Below, one piece after another: positions 20,380 to 30,670 of a stretch of DNA of 64,000 nucleotides (within the stretch, counting starts at the first letter, position 1; each line of letters opens with the position of its first letter). The position numbers and the translations under genes are program-made. The notes under the pieces are model-generated. The model had not been told where the DNA came from. It did not search any database and saw only the letters and a program-made list of their open reading frames with translations. Source of the stretch: Acidimicrobiales bacterium (GTDB taxonomy: Bacteria > Actinomycetota > Acidimicrobiia > Acidimicrobiales > Iamiaceae); the NCBI GenBank assembly GCA_025463985.1, contig JAODBM010000128.1:62001-126000 (forward strand), given 5' to 3'.

Positions 20380-21240
20380 TCAGATCGTGGCGTAGACGCC
20401 GTTGAAGATCGTCTGGAAGTCGGCCACGTGCTTGGCGAACGACCCCTTGGCGCACAGCGTCTGCACCACGACCCCGAGACCGTCCTGGCGCACGTACACG
20501 TAGAACAGGGCCTCGACGGGGATCGTGCCGCCGCTCTGGCGCACGAGATAGCCGCTGCCCACGCCTGAGATCGCTTCGATCACCCGCGCCGACGGCAGCT
20601 TGGCCACCTTCACGTTCCCGATCTGCGACTGCGAGACCTCGGTCGCGAACTCCCGCGCCCGCCGCTCGAGCACCGAGTCGGCGCCCTCGCCCTTCTGCGT
20701 CGAGAAGAACAGGACCTCCATCACCGCGCCGCTGCTCGACATGGAGGTGCCGCCCGCGGTCTGCTGGTCCACCGTCCAGCCCGCCGGCAGCGTCGTCGAG
20801 ATGTTGTGGCCCAGGTCGATGCTCTTGCCACCCTGGTCGCTCGGCGTGACGGGCGCTGTGGTCGTGGTCGTCGAGGGGGCCACGGTCGTGACCGGCTGCG
20901 ACGGCTGCGGACCGGCGACCGGGACCGTGCTCGGCGGCGCCACGTGGTCGCGCGGCTTCTGCTGTTGCTGCTGCTGGTCGGTGAGCTGGCTGCTGTGCGC
21001 GCTGGCGTCGGCCGCGGTGTGCTTCGAGCCGGCGACGCTCGCCACGAGGGCACCGACACCGCCGGCCGCCAGCGTGAGCACCACCACCGCGGCGACGACG
21101 ACGGGGGTGCGGTTGGACGTCGGCTTCGGTGGGGCCACCGCGGCCGCCGGGATGGGGGGCGCCGGTCGGGGCGGGACGGTTCCCGGCGGTGCCGCCGGAG
21201 CGGGTGCGCCGGCCGGGGCGGTTGGATCATCTGGGGTCAT
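20380..21240 (-). CDS. Pro-rich, single-pass membrane-anchored protein of unknown function
   Basis: I do not recognise a family. The 286-aa chain has a Pro/Ala-rich cytoplasmic head (1-43) and one membrane segment (about 45-68, VVVAAVVVLTLAAGGVGALVA). A Gln run and Thr/Pro-rich linker (about 80-140) follow, and then a compact extracellular domain beginning IDLGHNISTTLPAGWTVDQQ. That domain resembles small lipoprotein-like folds that bind or shield partners. The last gene of the envelope module, 3 bp after the PrsW-like gene, so they are co-translated. Its topology (N-in) fits a surface-exposed component of the module. Confidence 0.72.
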   Translation of the reverse strand: MTPDDPTAPAGAPAPAAPPGTVPPRPAPPIPAAAVAPPKPTSNRTPVVVAAVVVLTLAAGGVGALVASVAGSKHTAADASAHSSQLTDQQQQQQKPRDHVAPPSTVPVAGPQPSQPVTTVAPSTTTTTAPVTPSDQGGKSIDLGHNISTTLPAGWTVDQQTAGGTSMSSSGAVMEVLFFSTQKGEGADSVLERRAREFATEVSQSQIGNVKVAKLPSARVIEAISGVGSGYLVRQSGGTIPVEALFYVYVRQDGLGVVVQTLCAKGSFAKHVADFQTIFNGVYATI

Positions 21241-21243
21241 CGG

Positions 21244-22449
21244 TCAACCCTCCATTCCGGCCGGCGCCGCGGGAACGGCTGCCGGGTCGTCGGGCCCGGC
21301 GTTGCGGCGCCGGTCTTGCTTCGCGGCGGCCCGCACGGAGGTGCCGCAGGCCATGCAGAAGTGGGCGCCGTCGGGGAGCGGGAGGCGGCACGACGGGCAG
21401 TGCGCGATGCCCGAGGCGGCCGAGCCGAGCCGGGTGCCGGCGACCGCCACCTCGAGCGCACCCTCGAGCAGCGCGACGTGCAGGAGCATGCGCAGCCGCA
21501 CCACCGCGGCCGCGGCCACGACGAGCCCCCAACCGAGGCCGACGATGACGCCGAGCGTGCCGCTGATGCGAGTGGACAGGTACAGGCCGAGCGAGAAGGC
21601 GACGTCGTAGAGCAGCGCCTTGCCGAGCGCCCGCAGGTAGCGCGGACCGAACCCCTCGTACCCGGGGCCGACGCCCGACCAGCCAGCCACGGCGATGCCG
21701 GTCGCGGCGCCGTACACGACCGGCTTGACCAACGCCGTGGTGACGATGAGCGCCACCCACAGGCCGGCGTCCGGGTGGGCCACCCGACCCAGACCGGCGG
21801 TGAACAGCGTCCGGTTGAGCACGAGCGTCTCGGCCGCGGCGAACGCCGCCCCGGACGCCACGCCGAAGGTGATCCCGTCGATGATGTCGTCGAACTTCGG
21901 CTTCGACGCCAGCCACACCGGGCCGATCTGGCGCAGCAGCTCGCCGCCGATCGGGGCCAGGATGCCGAGCACGAGCAGGTCCCGGCCGTTGATGGCGTTG
22001 CGGCTGCCGGCCAGGATCCCCGACGGCAGCACCACCTCCCGCCAGAGGTAGGTGAAAGCTCCACCCAGCAGCAACGACAGCACCATCGCGCCGGCCAGCA
22101 CCGGCAACGGCTCGTCCTCCCACTGGTTCACGTCCTGGAGGTACACGACGTAGACCACCGGCACGACGATCGCGGCGGCGGCGAACGCGGCGGTGAGCAG
22201 CCCGATGGCCGCGAGCACGACCGGGACGGCCAGGCCGGCCGCGAGCGCGAACCGGTAGGTCTGGGGAGCCGAGCCGGCGGCCAGCGGCATCAACGACGAC
22301 GAGAGGTTGAACGACAGGACCGACTCGCCCGGCTGGACGGCGAACGAGTGGTGCCGGCGGTCATCGCCGTCGGCCCAGACGTCGCCGCCGCAGGCCGGAC
22401 AGAAGCGGCCCCCGTCAGGCACCGCGCTCGCACAGCGTGGACAGATCAC
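21244..22449 (-). CDS. PrsW-like polytopic membrane protein with terminal zinc ribbons and degenerate protease motifs
   Basis: This 401-aa protein starts with a zinc ribbon (CPRC at 3-6, CPAC at 17-20) and carries a second near the C-terminus (CPSC ... CMAC). Between them are ~8 membrane segments with PrsW-like sequence, e.g. DGITFGVASGAAFAAAETL. The family motifs EExxK, FxxxE and HxxxD are only partly kept: Gly169-Glu170 with Arg173 replaces EExxK, FAAAE (203-207) is intact, and the HxxxD position before Asp282 is Ala278. Loss of one Glu and the His suggests it is not an active site-1 protease. It lies 58 bp after the exported protease gene. Confidence 0.72.
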   Translation of the reverse strand: MICPRCASAVPDGGRFCPACGGDVWADGDDRRHHSFAVQPGESVLSFNLSSSLMPLAAGSAPQTYRFALAAGLAVPVVLAAIGLLTAAFAAAAIVVPVVYVVYLQDVNQWEDEPLPVLAGAMVLSLLLGGAFTYLWREVVLPSGILAGSRNAINGRDLLVLGILAPIGGELLRQIGPVWLASKPKFDDIIDGITFGVASGAAFAAAETLVLNRTLFTAGLGRVAHPDAGLWVALIVTTALVKPVVYGAATGIAVAGWSGVGPGYEGFGPRYLRALGKALLYDVAFSLGLYLSTRISGTLGVIVGLGWGLVVAAAAVVRLRMLLHVALLEGALEVAVAGTRLGSAASGIAHCPSCRLPLPDGAHFCMACGTSVRAAAKQDRRRNAGPDDPAAVPAAPAGMEG

Positions 22450-22507
22450 AGCACGCCTCCTTGGTGGTCCGGATGAGGATCGGTTCGATGGTTCGGGCGG
22501 AGGCGCG

Positions 22508-24499
22508 TCATGGCACCTTCCCCTGCAGTCCCTGGGCGAAGGTGGAGCCGTCGATGGTCGTGAGCTGCAGGGCCGCGACGAACGTGGTGCCGGGCTTCAC
22601 GTGCACGGTCGCGTAGCGCGCCGCCGTCGCCGCGACGCCCTGTGACGACGCCGGCTCGAGCGTGAACTTGCCGCTGCGCAGCACCTGCACCCGGGGCACG
22701 AGCACCGAGCCGGCGGCGGGCCGCAGCTGGCTGGCGCCGCCGGTCTCGTCGAGCTGGTAGAGGCTCACGTAGGACACGCGGAGGTTGGAGTCGAGGGTCA
22801 GCTCGAGCTCGGCGGAGGTCTCGCGCCCGGCTGCCGTTCGGTAGATCAACGGCATCGAACCGCGGATCGTCCCCGATTGCTGCTGCAGGAACAGCGTGCC
22901 CGGCAGGGTGACCTTGCCGTCGGTGAGCTGCATGTACTCGAAGGCCCAGGGCGCCTGGATCGTGCCCCGGGTGCCGGCGTCGAGCGTTGCGGGGCCGGCG
23001 AGGAGGATGGTCGGGGCGCCGTCCTTGCCGTACACGCCCCACATGCCCCGAGCGCCTGCGAGCTTCGCGTTGGTGGCGTCGCTCACGGTTCCCGACAGCA
23101 GCACGCCACCGGCGTTGAGGCTGGCGAACGTCGGGCCGGTGGCGAGCGTCGGCCGCTCGCCGTTGGCGCTGCTGGCGACCGACGCGTAGAAAGCGTCGAG
23201 CACCGGCGCCCAGTCGTCAGCGGCGACGGTCGCCTTGTACTTGCCGAGTGCGTTGCCGGCGGCGGTCGCGTCGGCTGGGAAGTAGATCGACAGGCCCGCG
23301 GCCTGGCGGTTGGCCGCGCCGACCCGCTGGTACAGCCGCACGGTCGTGAGGGCGGCGAGCACGGCGTCGCGGGCTGCGGCCACGTCGGTGGGGAGGGCCG
23401 CGGGGTCCAGGTGGTTGAGCAGGTCGCCGAGGTCCACCGTCTGGAACGGGTTGGTCCCGGGGTCGAGCGAGCCGTAGGTGAGCACCTGGTGGCGGGCCCG
23501 GCTCAACGCCACGGCGACCGCCGGCATGTTGTCGATGAGCGCCCGCTCCAACGAGGCCAACGCCCGGTGGAACCGGTCCATCCCGCTCAGGTCGGTCACC
23601 GAGAACGCCATGGCGTCCTGGTTCGCCTGCGACAGCTGCGCGATCGCGGTCGCGTAGCTGTCCACGAAGTTCTTGGCCAGCGCGAGCGGCGTGGCGCCCG
23701 CGTCCATGGCGTTGATCTGGTCCTCGTCGATGAAGCCGGAGCTGAGCTCGACCTCCTCGTCGGCGACCATCAGCGAGGCGTACGGCGCCAGCGCCCGGGC
23801 CACCTCGTACTCGCTCATGAGGCAGGAGTCGAAGATGAGCAGGTCGAGCTTGTCCAGCCCCGCGGCGCGCTCGCCGCGGGCCAGCGCCGACGCCATCGCG
23901 TCGAGGTGGATGATCGTCTGGCGGGATCCGCTGGCGTTCGGCCCCTCATCCACGCTCGCGCCGACCCAGCCGGCGCCGTGGTCGGAGATCGACAGCGCGT
24001 AGTGGCGGGCCGGGTAGCGAGCCGCCGCTTCCTGGATGAACCACGCCAGCGTGTCGCCGTTGCCCATGTCGATCTCACCGAGGTCGGTGAGCAGCTTCGC
24101 CTTGCCGGCTTGGACCTCGACCAGCTGCGCGCCGGTCGTGATCGGCAGGCCGGCCACCGGCCCGTCGTAGTAGCCGACGGCCCGGTCGATCAGGACCACG
24201 ACCTTCACGTTGCCGCCGTAGCGGGCCTTCGTCATCTCCTCGAGGTGCAGCAGCTGGGCCGGCTCGAGGTTGTTGTCGCTGTTCGAATACACCATGTAGG
24301 TCCACTCGGGGAGCGCGGCCGCGGCGCGGCGGGCCAGCGCGTGGCGCGGCAGCGCCCGCGTCGCACGAGCGGCCGGGTGGGCGACCGCGGTCGAGGACGG
24401 CACGCCGACCCCGACCGCCACGCTCGCGGCCACCAAGGCGAGCGCGAGCGCGACGAACGTGGACGTCCGCCGAGCCATGGCGAGCGGGTTCCGAATCAT
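22508..24499 (-). CDS. exported clostripain-family (C11) cysteine protease
   Basis: The 663-aa protein has an N-terminal signal or anchor (residues 9-33, very Ala/Val-rich). A C11 catalytic domain follows, with WTYMVYSNSDNNLE at 66-79, the general-base His174 in SISDHGAGW and the nucleophile Cys226 in FDSCLMS. After the protease domain there are ~250 residues of beta-rich sequence. Clostripain relatives cleave after basic or other residues outside the cell and often self-process. The ATG overlaps the membrane-protein stop (ATGA), so the two are coupled. No lipobox is seen. Confidence 0.85.
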   Translation of the reverse strand: MIRNPLAMARRTSTFVALALALVAASVAVGVGVPSSTAVAHPAARATRALPRHALARRAAAALPEWTYMVYSNSDNNLEPAQLLHLEEMTKARYGGNVKVVVLIDRAVGYYDGPVAGLPITTGAQLVEVQAGKAKLLTDLGEIDMGNGDTLAWFIQEAAARYPARHYALSISDHGAGWVGASVDEGPNASGSRQTIIHLDAMASALARGERAAGLDKLDLLIFDSCLMSEYEVARALAPYASLMVADEEVELSSGFIDEDQINAMDAGATPLALAKNFVDSYATAIAQLSQANQDAMAFSVTDLSGMDRFHRALASLERALIDNMPAVAVALSRARHQVLTYGSLDPGTNPFQTVDLGDLLNHLDPAALPTDVAAARDAVLAALTTVRLYQRVGAANRQAAGLSIYFPADATAAGNALGKYKATVAADDWAPVLDAFYASVASSANGERPTLATGPTFASLNAGGVLLSGTVSDATNAKLAGARGMWGVYGKDGAPTILLAGPATLDAGTRGTIQAPWAFEYMQLTDGKVTLPGTLFLQQQSGTIRGSMPLIYRTAAGRETSAELELTLDSNLRVSYVSLYQLDETGGASQLRPAAGSVLVPRVQVLRSGKFTLEPASSQGVAATAARYATVHVKPGTTFVAALQLTTIDGSTFAQGLQGKVP

Positions 24500-26418
24500 G
24501 AGACGACCTCCGGAGCATCGAGCTCGGCTTCGACGTGGCGCTCCTGCTGCTTCTCGGCGCGAGCGAGCTGGAGCGGGCGGTCCGCCACGGCGCCGGCCAG
24601 CATCAGCGCGCTGAGCGCGTAGACGAGCGGCATGCCCAGCAGATCGAAGCCGTTGCTCGGCTGGGCGCTGGTGAGGAACCGCGCGGTGGCGACCTGATGG
24701 GAGGCGGTGAAGTACACCAGCAGCGTGATGCCGAACAGCGAGTAGCCGAGGTACAGGAACACCCGGCTCGCACGGGGGAACGCCCTGCTGGACGCATTGG
24801 CCCAACCGCCGGCGGTGAGGAACCCCCAGAGGAGCCCGAACACCACGAAGCCGATGCCGGTGAAGCCGAGCACGAGGCTGAACGGGTCGCTCACGAAGTG
24901 GCGCTGGCGGATGAGCGCCATCAGCAGCGCCACGAAGAAGAGCCGCTCGGCCCGGCCCTCGCTCAGCTGGCGGCGCGCCGCCCAGTAGGCGGCGAGCCCG
25001 ACCACGAGCGCGAACCAGCACTCGTCCACCTGCGCCTGGGTGAAGCTCAAGGCGCTGAAGTGGGACCAGGCCACGGTCACCTGCGTGTAGAGCAGCGTCG
25101 CGGCGACGCAGCCGAGGTAGAGGCCGAGGATGCGCTTGCCGCGCCGCGCCAGCAGCGGCGCGGCGGCGATGCCGATGATGCAGACCACCACCCGCTGCCC
25201 GTGGATGGCGTTGCTGTTCGACAGCACGTTCGACACGTGGAGGTCGAACCGAGCCATGCGCGCCCCGAGCGAGAGCGAGAACGTGCCGATCGCCTCGAGG
25301 ACGAACAGCGCCATGAACAGCAGCAGGGGCACGACGGTGATCGCCGCGGCGATGGGCAGCGCGCTGCGGGACGCGGTCCAGCCCACCTCGAGCTCGTCGT
25401 CGTCGATCACGTCCTCGGCGGCGGGGCGGCCGACCCCGGCGCGCTCGACCGACCACCAGATCGCGCTGATCACCCCCACGAGCCCGGCCGCCCCGGCGTA
25501 GCCGCCGATGACTCGACTGGCCGGACCCTTCGACACCGTCCGCCACAGCTCGGGGCCGAGGTCATGGATGCGCCACAGGGCGATCCCGGCCAGCAACGCG
25601 TAGACGCCCCGGACGGGGACGCGGCGATCGACGAACTCGAGGACCCAGCCGGTGGCGGTGGTGGCGAACGCCACGACACCGAGGCCTGCGGCGAAGATCA
25701 GCGGCAGGCTGAGGTCGCGGACGTCGGTGACGATGATGCTGAAGTGGTCGGCGGCGAGCGTCGAGCCGGCGAAGCGGTCGAAGGCGACGAGCTGCGCCTG
25801 CGCGACGGCAAAGACCGTGACCGTCGCGGCCAACAGCACGCCGAGCTCGAGCGCGGGCCGGGGCCGGAAGCGCCACGCCAGGGCGAACACGGCAAGCACG
25901 ACAGCGATGCCGGCCCAGCCCGCCCAGTGCCGCCAATCGTGGGTGCCGCCGAAGCGGTCGCCCGTCGAGCGCACCTCCAGCGTGAAGCTCAGGAACACGA
26001 GCAGCACGAGGAAGCGCAGGGGACGCATGGCCCGCAGCGCTCCGGCAAGCATGAGCGCCGCGCCCACGGCGAGGAGCAGCAGCGTGACCGGCAGGAGCAG
26101 CTCGGGCAGCAACGTCCCCCGACCGACCTGACCGTTGCTCTGGGCGATCAGCGGGCCGTGCGTGCGCCAGCGCTGCGCGGTGACGAGCACCCCGACGGCC
26201 ACGACGACCAGCGCCATCGCCGCGCCGACGATGGCCTTCACCAGCGGCCGGAGTCCCTTGAGCCTGATGACGCCGTCCCGGAAGACCTGCAGCACGAAGT
26301 CCCGCAGGATGCCGAACGTCGCGTCCCACACGAACCCCAGCACTTGGCGCGCCAGCGAGGGTCGCGGCCCGACGGGCGGGGCCGCCGGGGCCAGCGGTGG
26401 TCCGTCGACGACGGTCAC
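24496..26418 (-). CDS. polytopic membrane protein of unknown function (about 14 segments)
   Basis: No family was recognised. GTG 26418 overlaps the upstream beta-propeller stop (GTGA), which gives a 640-aa protein. Residues 1-60 are soluble, and then roughly 14 hydrophobic segments run to residue ~610. The chain ends with a charged cytoplasmic tail (ARAEKQQERHVEAELD). Short conserved-looking loop features include GTHDWRHWAGW and VLSNSNAIHGQR, but I see no transporter, transferase or kinase signature. It is locked by 4-bp overlaps to the beta-propeller gene before it and the C11 protease gene after it, so it is likely the membrane core of the module. Confidence 0.7.
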   Translation of the reverse strand: MTVVDGPPLAPAAPPVGPRPSLARQVLGFVWDATFGILRDFVLQVFRDGVIRLKGLRPLVKAIVGAAMALVVVAVGVLVTAQRWRTHGPLIAQSNGQVGRGTLLPELLLPVTLLLLAVGAALMLAGALRAMRPLRFLVLLVFLSFTLEVRSTGDRFGGTHDWRHWAGWAGIAVVLAVFALAWRFRPRPALELGVLLAATVTVFAVAQAQLVAFDRFAGSTLAADHFSIIVTDVRDLSLPLIFAAGLGVVAFATTATGWVLEFVDRRVPVRGVYALLAGIALWRIHDLGPELWRTVSKGPASRVIGGYAGAAGLVGVISAIWWSVERAGVGRPAAEDVIDDDELEVGWTASRSALPIAAAITVVPLLLFMALFVLEAIGTFSLSLGARMARFDLHVSNVLSNSNAIHGQRVVVCIIGIAAAPLLARRGKRILGLYLGCVAATLLYTQVTVAWSHFSALSFTQAQVDECWFALVVGLAAYWAARRQLSEGRAERLFFVALLMALIRQRHFVSDPFSLVLGFTGIGFVVFGLLWGFLTAGGWANASSRAFPRASRVFLYLGYSLFGITLLVYFTASHQVATARFLTSAQPSNGFDLLGMPLVYALSALMLAGAVADRPLQLARAEKQQERHVEAELDAPEVVS

Positions 26419-29400
26419 GACCCGCTCCCCGGAGGGGGCGCCAGGCCGAACAGCGCCGGGCCACCGGGCACGAGGATGGCGGGCCCGATGCGAGCCGGGG
26501 CCTGGATGAGGCTGACCAGCCCGAGATCGTCGCCGAGCCCCGGGAAGAGCGCCGTGACCCGGCCGGTGTCGGCCGCGACGGTCAGGGTCCGCCCGTGATC
26601 GAGCACCGTCCAGACCTGACCGTCGATCAGCGATGCGGTCCCGAGCGGCGAGGCCGGCAGGCTCACCTCCCAGCGCAGCGCGCCGCTGCTGGCGTCGAGC
26701 CCGACGAGCGCGGAGGTGCCGCCGACGGGCGCGACCACCGTCCGGTCCGTGGCCAGCAGCCGGCCGAACTGGGGGAGGAACGTCCCGGCAGGCAGCGTGC
26801 GGTTCCAGCGCACCGCGCCGGACGCGGTGTCGACGGCGACGATCCGGGCCGTGACGGTCGTGCCGTCGTCGACCGACGCGAGGTAGGCGGTGCGGCCGTC
26901 GGGGGCGAGCGCGAGCCCGGCCTCGGCGCCCGGTGCGCGCGACGCCCAGCGTGCGACGCCGGTGTGGAGGTCGTACGCGGTGAGTGGCAGCCCGGCGTAC
27001 ACGGTGCGATCGTCGGCGACCGGGCCGGCAGGACCGAACGACACGCCGAGCGCCCGCAGGCCGGCCGAGGCGTGCCGCCACAGCGACTGCCCGGTGCGCA
27101 GGTCGAACGCCTCGATCGTCACGGTGGCGCCGGCCTGCTCGGCCGCGACGGCGACCTCACCGCCGACGGCGAGGGGCTGTTGCACCGCGCCGGCGACCGC
27201 GACGGTCCAGCGCACGGCGCCCGACAGGAGGTCGACCCGCACGAGCGTGCCCGGCGCACCCTTCGCGGTGCCGGTGAACAGCACGACCGCCTCGTCGCCC
27301 ACGACCACGGGCGGGACGAGAGAGGACCCGCGGTGGGTGATGGCGCTGACGAGCTTCGTCGTCCCCGTCGCCGGGTCGCCGGTGTAGAGCCGGCCCGCGC
27401 TGTCGAGCAGGACGGCGCGGCCCCGCCATGGCGCGGCGGAGATGGCCAGGTTGGCGCCGCCGAAGGCCGGGTCCGAGTCGGGCCGGCGGATCCAACGCAG
27501 CGCCAAGGACGCGGGGTCGCTCGCGCTGATCGGCCCCAACCGGCGGAGCACGCCGTCGCGGTCCACGAGGTAGGCCGCGCCCCGGAAGAGCCGAGGCCCT
27601 CGGTTGAACGCGGGCGGCGCGTCGGTCGCGTCCTTGGTGTCCGAGGCCTGCCACGAGGAGACGACCTGGCCGTTCGGATCGACGAGGTCGAGCGAGCCGT
27701 CGGCGCGGGCCACGAGGAACCCGGCGGCGGTCGCGGCCGGGACGCCGACGTAGTGGCGGTCGCCGATCAGCCAGCGCCGGGCACCACCGGCCAGGTCGTA
27801 GCCGAGCAGCTCGCCGTCGTCGTTCACCGCGGCGACCGCCTGGCCGTCGAGGGCCGCACCGTTGGAGGCGCTTGCCCGCAGCGAAGCCGACCATCGCGGC
27901 GCGCCCGCCCGCACGTCGACGCGCGTGAGGGTCCCGCCGGCGCCGACGACCGTCGCGGTGCCGGCCACCGACACGATCGGGCTCTGCACGGGCCCGCCGG
28001 CCGAGGTCGACCAGCGCTTGGTGCCGCGGCGGACGTCGAGCCCATAGACGGTGCCGGCGTCGGTGCCGACGACGGCCACGCCCTGTTCGACGACCGGATC
28101 GGCGACCATCGCGGCATCGCCGCTGAACGTCCAGCGGAGCTTGCCGGTGGCGGCCTCGAGGCCACGCACCTTCCCGTCCTCGCCGGCGACGATCACCAGG
28201 TCACCGGCCACGACCGGGCGGGCGACGACGTTGTCGCCGGTCGACGACGACCAGAGGAAGAGACCCCGGGCGTCCAGCGCGTAGATCCTCCGGTCGGCGG
28301 CGCCGAAGAAGAGCCGGCCGTGCACGGGGTCGTAGCGGGGTGCGCCGTACACGCGCCCGCCGGTGGCGAACGACCACGCTCGCTGGCCCTGGGCCACCCC
28401 CGACGCGATCACCGCGGTGATGCCGTCGGTGTGCTCGGTCGCGGCCACGACGACGGGCGGATCGGTGGCGATCGGCTCCGGCGCGAACGTGGGCTCGGCC
28501 ACGGTCCCTGGCGCCTGGAGGCGCGAGATGCGCGACAGGTGCCAGCTCGCCGGCGCCGCGGTTCCCGGCGGTCGCTCGAGCGCGGGGACGGAGAGCCCCG
28601 CTGCCGCCACCCCGGCATGGTCGCCGAGCGAGCGCAACGTGTAGACCCCGCCGCCGGGAGCGTGGTCGGTGCTCGACGTGCCGCCCGCGCCGGCGCAGGC
28701 CTCGTCCCGCGTCTGCAGGACCGTCTGCTGCGCGCCGATCCCGTGCGTCAGGCGGTTGTCGACCGTGATGCAGTCGGCGTAGCGACCGGTCGGCGTGCTC
28801 AGCGGACCGTGGCTGACGACATGGCCGCTCGACCGGTACGTCTCGGCGCCGAGGCTGCCCTGGCTCGACCAGCGGTCGCCCAGCCGCGGGCGAGCGGGCA
28901 GCTCTTTCATGGGCGGGTCGAACAGGCGGGCGCCGCGGCCGGTGTCGGCGTAGCCGAGCAGGAAGGCCCCGCGCGCATCGATGAGGTGGACCGACTCCGA
29001 GAACGTCTGGGTGCCATCGAGGTTGGCCTCGCGGATCCAGCCGATCAGCACGGTGACCTTGCTGAAGGCTCGACGGGTGGCGACGCGGTCGACCGGGTTC
29101 GAGCCCATCACCGTGGTCGTCAGCAGCCGGACGAACGCCTTCGGCAGCTCGGTCAGGGCCCGGAGCCCGGGCAGCACCTCGAAGCTGTCGGACACCCAGC
29201 CCACGGGCCGGCCGGCCCTGGTGACGCCGACCAGGGCCGAACCGCCGTGCGGCACGAGGTAGTCGATCACGGGCAGGTTCGCGGCGGGGTCAGCGGCTCG
29301 CCACGGCCGCACGAACACGTAGGTGCTCGCCACCATCACCGCGACGACCGCGGCAGCGGCGCCCGCTTGGATGCCCCACCGCACGGCGAGCGGCGGAGGG

Positions 29401-29525
29401 GGCGGCCCTGCACTGGCCAAGTTCGAGCCCTGCACCCAGTCCCCACCCCCTCGTCCCGCTCCGCCCACGAGATCCTGATCGTGGCGACGATCGAGCCGCG
29501 ACGCATCAGGGGAACCCCGCGTCAT
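26415..29525 (-). CDS. membrane-anchored PQQ-like beta-propeller protein
   Basis: The 1036-aa chain has a Pro-rich head, a membrane segment (about residues 48-70), a ~330-aa unique domain, and then ~650 residues with WD/PQQ-like repeats. The repeats read VYGLDVRRGTKRW, VRGLEAATGKLRW, LVRVDLLSGAVRW and IVAVDTASGAVRW. These are typical of YncE/BamB-type propellers and not of catalytic PQQ dehydrogenases. Such domains dock proteins or ligands outside the membrane. The start is ATG 29525 but lacks an evident RBS; GTG 29435 (VQGSNLASAG) is an alternative. It heads the five-gene overlapping run. Confidence 0.8.
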   Translation of the reverse strand: MTRGSPDASRLDRRHDQDLVGGAGRGGGDWVQGSNLASAGPPPPPLAVRWGIQAGAAAAVVAVMVASTYVFVRPWRAADPAANLPVIDYLVPHGGSALVGVTRAGRPVGWVSDSFEVLPGLRALTELPKAFVRLLTTTVMGSNPVDRVATRRAFSKVTVLIGWIREANLDGTQTFSESVHLIDARGAFLLGYADTGRGARLFDPPMKELPARPRLGDRWSSQGSLGAETYRSSGHVVSHGPLSTPTGRYADCITVDNRLTHGIGAQQTVLQTRDEACAGAGGTSSTDHAPGGGVYTLRSLGDHAGVAAAGLSVPALERPPGTAAPASWHLSRISRLQAPGTVAEPTFAPEPIATDPPVVVAATEHTDGITAVIASGVAQGQRAWSFATGGRVYGAPRYDPVHGRLFFGAADRRIYALDARGLFLWSSSTGDNVVARPVVAGDLVIVAGEDGKVRGLEAATGKLRWTFSGDAAMVADPVVEQGVAVVGTDAGTVYGLDVRRGTKRWSTSAGGPVQSPIVSVAGTATVVGAGGTLTRVDVRAGAPRWSASLRASASNGAALDGQAVAAVNDDGELLGYDLAGGARRWLIGDRHYVGVPAATAAGFLVARADGSLDLVDPNGQVVSSWQASDTKDATDAPPAFNRGPRLFRGAAYLVDRDGVLRRLGPISASDPASLALRWIRRPDSDPAFGGANLAISAAPWRGRAVLLDSAGRLYTGDPATGTTKLVSAITHRGSSLVPPVVVGDEAVVLFTGTAKGAPGTLVRVDLLSGAVRWTVAVAGAVQQPLAVGGEVAVAAEQAGATVTIEAFDLRTGQSLWRHASAGLRALGVSFGPAGPVADDRTVYAGLPLTAYDLHTGVARWASRAPGAEAGLALAPDGRTAYLASVDDGTTVTARIVAVDTASGAVRWNRTLPAGTFLPQFGRLLATDRTVVAPVGGTSALVGLDASSGALRWEVSLPASPLGTASLIDGQVWTVLDHGRTLTVAADTGRVTALFPGLGDDLGLVSLIQAPARIGPAILVPGGPALFGLAPPPGSGS

Positions 29526-29561: not shown

Positions 29562-30383
29562 TCAGACGAGGACGGATCCGCCGGCGACGTCGACCACGAT
29601 GCCGCTGATCCATGACGACGCGTCGGAGGCGAGGAACAACGCGGCCTCGGCGATGTCCTCCGGTGTGCCGAGGCGCCGGATGGGATGGTGCGCGCGCAGC
29701 TCTTCTTGGACGGCCTCGGGGATCTGCTGTTGGTTGCGCTCGGTCAGCACGGTCTCGGGTGCGATGCAGTTGACCCGCACGTTGAACGGTCCCGCTTGCG
29801 CGGCGAGGTCTTTCGTCAGCAGCTCGATCCCCGCCTTGGCTGCGGCGTAGGCGGCCGGTGCGGCGCCGTTGGGACGACGAGCGGCGGCCGACGACATCGT
29901 GATGATGCGCCCGGAACCTCGCTCCTTCATCCCGGGCAGCAGGCTCTTGACGCTCAGGAACGTCGCGGTGAGGTTGGCGTCGATCGAGGCCCGCCAGTCC
30001 TCCTCCGTGATGTCTTCGATCGGGCCGGGACGCACGCCACTGCCCCCCGCGTTCGCGACGAGGATGTCGACCGGCCCGACCTGGGCCTCGATGTGGTGGC
30101 GCATCGCCTCCACCTCGGCGAACCGGGTCAGGTCGGCGGCGACCGAGGACGCACGCCCTCCGGCCGCTTCGATCCTCGCCCGCACCGCCTCGATGGCCTG
30201 GGCATCGCGGCCGTGGACCACCACGTGCGCGCCTGCTGCCGCGAAGCGCTCGGCGATGGCGGCGCCGATGCCCCGTGAGCTGCCCGTGATCAGGGCGACC
30301 TGGTCCTGCAGCCCGTTCACGAAGGTGACCCTGGCGGCCTGCGGTGCGCGTGGGTGAGCGATCTGCTGCGGGTCAGCGGGCAT
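29562..30383 (-). CDS. short-chain dehydrogenase/reductase (SDR)
   Basis: Classical SDR of 273 aa: TGSSRGIG cofactor motif, ANAGG, catalytic Ser in TMSSAAARR and YAAAK, and an end DVAGGSVLV. ATG 30383 has GAGGAG ~10 nt upstream and overlaps the end of the reductase-like gene. A shorter form could start at GTG 30320 (VNGLQDQ). It could be a 3-oxoacyl or alcohol dehydrogenase. It ends 36 bp before the beta-propeller gene on the same strand, so the envelope module may be transcribed from the same promoter; this is inference. Confidence 0.85.
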   Translation of the reverse strand: MPADPQQIAHPRAPQAARVTFVNGLQDQVALITGSSRGIGAAIAERFAAAGAHVVVHGRDAQAIEAVRARIEAAGGRASSVAADLTRFAEVEAMRHHIEAQVGPVDILVANAGGSGVRPGPIEDITEEDWRASIDANLTATFLSVKSLLPGMKERGSGRIITMSSAAARRPNGAAPAAYAAAKAGIELLTKDLAAQAGPFNVRVNCIAPETVLTERNQQQIPEAVQEELRAHHPIRRLGTPEDIAEAALFLASDASSWISGIVVDVAGGSVLV

Positions 30384-30670
30384 CGGCCGGGTGCTCCTCG
30401 GTACGGGCGTGCTCGCCCAGGTGCCAGCCGGCCCCACTCGTCGCGCCCCCGCAGTCGGACGCGGATGGTCTCACCGCCGGCCAGGTTCAGCGTCCACCGA
30501 CCGCCTTCGGGAGAGAGCAGCGTGGTGCCGTCCCGCACGTAGCTCACCGGCTGCCGGTACCGCCGGCCGGATCGCCGGCCCCGATAGTCGAGCAGCATCA
30601 GCTGGCCGCTGAGTGGCGTCGGGAAGGGGAGCGCGAGCACCCGCCGCATCACGACGTTGGCCCGCCGCAT
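30317..30670 (-). CDS. deazaflavin (F420)-dependent nitroreductase-like protein, possibly frameshifted
   Basis: The 117-aa frame begins MRRANVVMRRVLALPFPTPLSGQLMLLDYRGRRSGRRYRQPVSYV, and has WTLNLAGGETIRVRLRGR. This matches small split-barrel Ddn/DUF385-like proteins. After RDEW the given frame becomes Arg/Pro-rich and runs 67 bp into the SDR. Another frame from the same point reads AGWHLGEHARTEEHPADAR and stops at 30373, overlapping the SDR ATG by 11 bp as in coupled genes. That suggests a one-base frameshift in the GGGG run near 30437, real or from sequencing. Cofactor use is inferred from family. Confidence 0.55.
   Translation of the reverse strand: MRRANVVMRRVLALPFPTPLSGQLMLLDYRGRRSGRRYRQPVSYVRDGTTLLSPEGGRWTLNLAGGETIRVRLRGRDEWGRLAPGRARPYRGAPGRCPLTRSRSLTHAHRRPPGSPS

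Follow-up and report, generated by a model that had tools for sequence, protein, structure and literature searches.

Five adjacent genes on the minus strand of a 64,000-nucleotide stretch of DNA from an Acidimicrobiales bacterium (contig JAODBM010000128.1, positions 62,001 to 126,000; hereafter the window) raise the question of why a gene for an exported protease should sit among four genes for membrane proteins. The source genome is 4.19 Mb in 238 contigs and is 83% complete. An earlier reading of the bare sequence, here called the original prediction, placed the five genes at 20380-29525 and proposed a surface proteolysis or sensing machine. The coordinates hold, and all five genes are coding, with a GC content at third codon positions (GC3) of 0.93-0.96 each. 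In order of transcription, E encodes an anchored propeller protein, D a polytopic protein, C an exported protease of the C11 (clostripain) family, B a PrsW-like membrane protein with two zinc ribbons, and A a single-pass protein with an outer domain (Table 1). We put at about even the chance that these genes form a single operon whose products make up a membrane-tethered module for proteolysis outside the cell, with two sub-modules, B-A-protease and E-D.

Recurrence of the five-gene set

The junctions in the window are as originally described at all four places: GTGA is the overlap at E-D and ATGA that at D-C, and gaps of 58 nt and 3 nt separate C from B and B from A. Evidence that the five genes truly belong together came from Aquihabitans sp. 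G128, which belongs to the same family as the window genome (probably Iamiaceae, in the Acidimicrobiia) and was the one genome among 60 relatives in which D was present. All five genes are contiguous and on the same strand in Aquihabitans, and the tblastn identities with the window are 59% for B, 38% for C, 35% for E, 34% for D and 28% for A. A search for the same gene order in other actinobacteria had been proposed as a check. The genes are together, but their order is B-A-C-E-D rather than E-D-C-B-A, with the pairs E-D and B-A kept. B and A are about 2 nt apart, A and C overlap by GTGA, as do E and D, and C and E are adjacent. Genes A, B, C and E each seem frameshifted in the published complete Aquihabitans genome, probably through indel errors, and the module may be overlooked in annotation of that genome; the broken proteins were compared piecewise.

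The genome searches covered samples of the available genomes, and within these the set is rare. A D profile matched the window alone among 395 genomes of the class, Aquihabitans having come from the search of relatives. Among 396 genomes of the phylum, the profile gave six matches including the window, with distant homologues in other classes; two marginal matches of about 70 residues were set aside as likely chance. Searches around genomes G435, G620 and G623 added no further members.

Split versions of the module

Further evidence came from genomes that carry part of the set. A B profile run over 158 genomes of the class found one full-length homologue besides the window, in G116, which belongs to another family. 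Other matches to this profile, limited to about residues 1-59, were single zinc ribbons, mostly in long open reading frames, and were rejected as B homologues. The G116 operon encodes B, which retains its two ribbons, together with an A-like protein and an exported sedolisin-like protease, the genes being joined by GTGA and ATGA overlaps. The protease has a pro-kumamolisin domain (1.2e-16), an S8/S53-type catalytic domain (6.8e-15) and the sedolisin ExxxD and GGTS motifs. Neither E nor D was seen within the 20 kb examined around this B-A pair. Thus, an exported protease lies beside B-A in all three loci with a full-length B, and the class of the protease varies. That the B-A pair, elsewhere next to a cysteine protease, accompanies a serine protease in G116 is the most telling clue, since the proposed handler is thereby distinguished from the enzyme.

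The E-D pair was found in G435, where D and E overlap by ATGA and an intact PrsW (120.4 bits) lies directly upstream. Further up lies a second PrsW, partly degenerate, whose gene is joined through TGATG to that of a single-pass protein with a zinc ribbon. The two PrsW paralogues lie at L011 13722-14837 and 15979-17028, and the intact copy retains EExxK together with the two His motifs. In this lineage it is the single-pass partner, and not PrsW, that carries the zinc ribbon. Another E, in G590, lies at a contig end. Together, the G116 trio and the G435 pair indicate that the conserved cores are E-D and B-A plus protease, with the C11 enzyme as a swappable part. The scattering of the genes among relatives, which the original prediction held would count against it, is therefore seen in part: the set splits into E-D and B-A, and is whole in Aquihabitans. 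The proposal of a surface proteolysis or sensing machine is supported in that the G116 operon independently ties membrane partners to exported proteolysis; its choice of core is not supported.

The C11 protease

The description of C as an exported, clostripain-like protease is well borne out. Its match to PF03415 (Peptidase_C11) scores 99.1 bits against a curated cut-off of 25.8, and an N-terminal export signal is predicted. Catalytic His174, in a DHG motif, and Cys226 are kept in eight of eight aligned C11 proteins, and Cys226 is the sole Cys of the whole chain. These residues correspond to His133 and Cys179 of PmC11, and Asp224, two residues before the catalytic Cys, corresponds to the S1-pocket residue Asp177 (PMC4850288). 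The putative activation-cleavage region between His and Cys holds a basic residue, the Arg of SGSRQ. Residues 40-65 (gene 24499-22508), which lie after the signal peptide and before the C11 domain, form an Arg-rich stretch, AARATRALPRHALARR, which could be a self-cleaved propeptide for a protease specific for basic residues.

The PrsW-like protein and its partner

The original reading of B as a degenerate PrsW-like protein with two zinc ribbons is upheld. The match to PF13367 (PrsW) scores 23.5 bits (4.4e-5), exactly the curated cut-off, and the alignment stops at profile position 107 of 196; the protein has eight hydrophobic segments, the usual number for PrsW. Each ribbon contributes four of eight Cys that may bind zinc. 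The predicted active site of PrsW consists of EExxK in transmembrane helix (TMH) 3, a His in TMH5 and HxxxD/N in TMH6 (PMC4602095). In B, the TMH3 motif is GGELLRQ, in which only the second Glu (E170) is retained; Glu207 is also retained. Both active-site His residues have been lost: the only His residues are at positions 33, 34, 225, 324, 350 and 363, none at the TMH5 or TMH6 motif. Since both are missing, and the Glu residues are lost as well in the G116 homologue, B is most probably a pseudoprotease rather than an active intramembrane protease, judging from its motifs.

Gene A encodes a Pro/Gln/Thr-rich single-pass protein with an outer domain, as first described: a Pro-rich cytosolic tail is followed by a transmembrane segment (about residues 47-65), a Gln/Thr/Pro-rich stalk and the outer domain. 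A search of Pfam and NCBIfam gave no family for A, even when the outer domain was searched against Pfam to E = 10. An AlphaFold2 (AF2) model of the outer domain, built from three sequences (mean predicted local distance difference test score, pLDDT, 71), matched PsbP/Mog1 proteins (Foldseek 5.8e-5; Z 11.6 over 144 residues). The same fold group includes MTC28, Apa and LpqN of Mycobacterium tuberculosis, and also Tsi3, Tli4/TplEi and SciW/Eag, immunity proteins or chaperones that bind exported enzymes. The model thus supports a PsbP/Mog1 fold for A with moderate confidence, and a shared fold shows no function.

Possible relatives of A were seen by eye in other proteins. The C11 proteases at L023 9018-11570 (G111) and L025 7875-10592 (G224) have a C-terminal domain of about 140 residues that looks PsbP-like, and the L023 and L024 chains begin with a Pro-rich tail and a transmembrane segment, like gene A. 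An open reading frame in G620 (L013 53-3640) has, at about residues 790-945, a soluble domain with "FQIAYPSGW" between transmembrane blocks, the C-terminal one D-like. Profile comparison gave no support for an A-D fusion in G620, which, like the C11 fusions, is a lead only.

The propeller and polytopic proteins

Gene E was described as a propeller of about 650 residues with a membrane anchor, and this is correct. A short cytosolic tail and one transmembrane segment (about residues 49-72) are followed by an outer domain and the propeller region (about residues 376-1030), in which blade motifs recur about 40 residues apart. This blade count, at least ten, makes two tandem propellers likelier than one, and the region is probably such a pair. 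The repeats are of the PQQ_2/BamB type and resemble BamB and AfsK. E scores 121.7 bits against the BamB equivalog model TIGR03300 and does not reach its cut-off of 285.2. The protein starts with a transmembrane segment and has no lipoprotein anchor Cys, and a Pfam scan gave no kinase domain, which in AfsK precedes the propeller. The outer region, a specific marker of the E family, has homologues in only three of 178 phylum genomes, and contains the sole Cys residues of E, a Cys252/Cys277 pair conserved in three species.

For D, the original count of 14 membrane segments is possible and not settled, the number ranging from 11 to 14 with the threshold; that it is polytopic and belongs to no family in Pfam or NCBIfam stands. 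An AF2 model of D from three sequences (pLDDT 40) was not used.

Table 1. Features of the five-gene locus, with positions in the window
Feature	Position	Strand	Details
Gene A, single-pass protein	20380..21240	(-)	286 aa
Outer domain of A (aa 135-286), modelled PsbP/Mog1 fold	20383..20838	(-)	AF2 + Foldseek
Gene B, zinc ribbon, 8-segment PrsW-like region, zinc ribbon	21244..22449	(-)	401 aa, GTG start
C-terminal zinc ribbon of B (C351, C354, C365, C368)	21346..21399	(-)	
N-terminal zinc ribbon of B (C3, C6, C17, C20)	22390..22443	(-)	
C-B gap	22450..22507	(-)	58 nt, strong AAGGAGG ribosome site before B
Gene C, exported C11 cysteine protease	22508..24499	(-)	663 aa, Peptidase_C11 4.9e-28
Codons Asp224 (S1 pocket), Ser225, catalytic Cys226 of C	23822..23830	(-)	PmC11 Asp177/Cys179 (PMC4850288)
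Catalytic His174 codon (DHG) of C	23978..23980	(-)	PmC11 His133 (PMC4850288)
Gene D, polytopic protein	24496..26418	(-)	640 aa, GTG start
Gene E, anchored PQQ/BamB-like propeller protein	26415..29525	(-)	1036 aa, PF13360 1.4e-40
Propeller region of E, at least 10 W-motif blades	26436..28400	(-)	
Outer region of E between transmembrane segment and propeller	28401..29288	(-)	~290 residues, alignment of homologues

Transcription and surroundings

A short-chain dehydrogenase (SDR) gene on the same strand (29562-30437) ends 36 nt upstream of E, so the five-gene transcript may start further upstream. No convincing homologue of this gene lies beside the module in Aquihabitans, and the operon may carry a host-specific 5' extension. 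A promoter scan of the locus gave no sigma-70-like promoter. A terminator scan was uninformative: of six terminator-like sites, where 1.7 were expected, five are on the plus strand, and the only minus-strand site lies inside D. A mobile-element origin was rejected, D having no match on plasmids. Elsewhere, at L026 11729-15463 (G583), a large secreted subtilase-looking protein with C-terminal wall-binding-type repeats lies beside a C11 lipoprotein-like protease, possibly another two-protease neighbourhood.

A model for the module and its alternatives

In the model of a membrane-tethered proteolysis module, the N-terminal signal would direct the export of C, probably as a C11 zymogen, and C would cut after basic residues outside the cell. 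On the membrane side, A and B would partner the exported protease by holding, chaperoning or restraining it. The outer domain of A may bind the protease or its pro-form, and B would act as a scaffold instead of an enzyme, by analogy with proposals for APH-1 and LnsB. E and D would probably form an outer pair for the docking or sensing of substrate or wall material, which they would pass to the protease, or they would gate the protease; in Iamiaceae this pair would be joined to the B-A handler.

Several observations weigh against this model. The five-gene unit is complete in only one genome other than that of the window, giving two loci in total. The link between B-A and a protease outside C11 loci comes from the single G116 operon, in which the A-like protein is only 16% identical to the outer domain of A. 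In Aquihabitans, C has Ser in place of the S1 Asp, and the enzyme of that genome may differ in specificity or activity. A C11-PsbP fusion, suggested in G111 and G224 by a "YPAGW"-type start seen by eye, had no support from profile comparison (hhalign probability 0.7%, G111). No C11 gene was seen within the approximately 20 kb examined around E-D in G435, and E-D thus need not serve a protease. Moreover, tblastn gave no A, B, D or E neighbours for the C11 genes of six other actinobacterial genomes. Together with the sedolisin-like replacement in G116, these last two results speak against the original placing of a C11 protease at the core.

The same loci bear on the alternatives. If E-D were the main actors in envelope biogenesis, helping to assemble or export a polymer or protein of the surface with BamB-like docking, the protease would mature or police their product. 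The BamB/AfsK-like propeller of E, the E-D pair of G435 and the E of G590 are consistent with such a role, as is the fold that A would share with LpqN, a cell-envelope biogenesis protein. Nonetheless, in G116 B-A accompanies a protease and neither E nor D was seen in the 20 kb examined, and D has no recognizable transferase or transporter family, and we consider this explanation unlikely. About equally doubtful is regulated-proteolysis signalling, in which E or A would be the sensor, C would make the site-1 cut in a membrane-protein ectodomain, and the ribbons and Pro-rich tail of B and A would relay the signal inside. PrsW is a known site-1 protease (PMC4602095), an intact copy precedes E-D in G435, and a comparative survey lists zinc ribbons, which B has at both ends, among the intracellular domains that several bacteria fuse to PrsW (PMC3482391). 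However, B lacks the catalytic His residues, and the conserved unit includes no sigma/anti-sigma pair or other transcription factor. The secreted protease of G116 points the same way: sedolisin-type proteases are a family of bulk endopeptidases rather than signalling enzymes.

Two further explanations have very little probability. PrsW and caspase-like peptidases have been associated with units for the processing or export of secreted peptides or polymorphic toxins (PMC3482391), but no candidate peptide, toxin or immunity gene was seen within the conserved unit, B has no active site, and none of the five genes matches a known anti-phage defence system in PADLOC, a result that also led to the rejection of a defence-system identity. 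A chance neighbourhood of unrelated envelope genes would fit the splitting of the set in G435 and G116; it is hard to reconcile with a second genus in which the five genes, only 28-59% identical to those of the window and differently ordered, still lie side by side with overlapping starts and stops, and with the recurrence of the B-A and E-D pairs in further families.

A broader form of the proteolysis-module model, which we hold only tentatively and regard as the less probable outcome, is that B-A is a dedicated handler independent of protease class (C11 or sedolisin-type), joined in Iamiaceae to E-D as a five-part surface complex and representing an undescribed class of machine. If B-A is a general handler, bacteria would offer a case of an active protease attended by an inactive relative of a membrane protease, an arrangement proposed until now chiefly for gamma-secretase, and the case would be testable with three genes. 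It would also suggest a reason for the persistence of zinc-ribbon PrsW relatives that lack active sites, and would assign a role to the unnamed polytopic D family.

Comparison with known systems

The original statement that no described system has this combination agrees with the open-access literature, in which no description of the gene set was found, nothing on such a system for PrsW with a zinc ribbon, and nothing on kumamolisin with PrsW or Acidimicrobiia; such absence is weak evidence of novelty. The components do have known counterparts. C shares with clostripain and PmC11 the Pfam domain, catalytic dyad, S1 Asp and export signal, but is distant in sequence (best PDB match 1.4e-8), has a long extra C-terminal region, and lies in an operon with four membrane partners, an arrangement not found described for those two proteases. 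E has repeats that match both BamB and AfsK PQQ-like propellers; unlike them, it has an N-terminal membrane anchor and an additional outer domain, and its partner is the polytopic D. The modelled fold of the outer domain of A is shared with MTC28, Apa, LpqN, Tsi3 and Eag/SciW, of which MTC28 is likewise proline-rich and secreted, whereas A has no family match at the sequence level, is membrane-anchored and is coupled to B and a protease.

The closest parallels for B are in the PrsW/CPBP superfamily, with which it shares PrsW homology, eight segments and a retained Glu. B differs in lacking both His motifs, in its two flanking zinc ribbons and in having an exported protease as its putative partner. 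In Staphylococcus aureus, the inactive CPBP membrane protein LnsB is required together with LnsA, a papain-fold (NlpC/P60) enzyme (PMC7387801). This parallel is an analogy only, as LnsA belongs to an unrelated enzyme family and the reaction is lipoprotein N-acylation. LnsB and the APH-1 subunit of gamma-secretase are inactive PrsW/CPBP relatives that have been proposed as partners of other enzymes (PMC7387801), the role suggested here for B.

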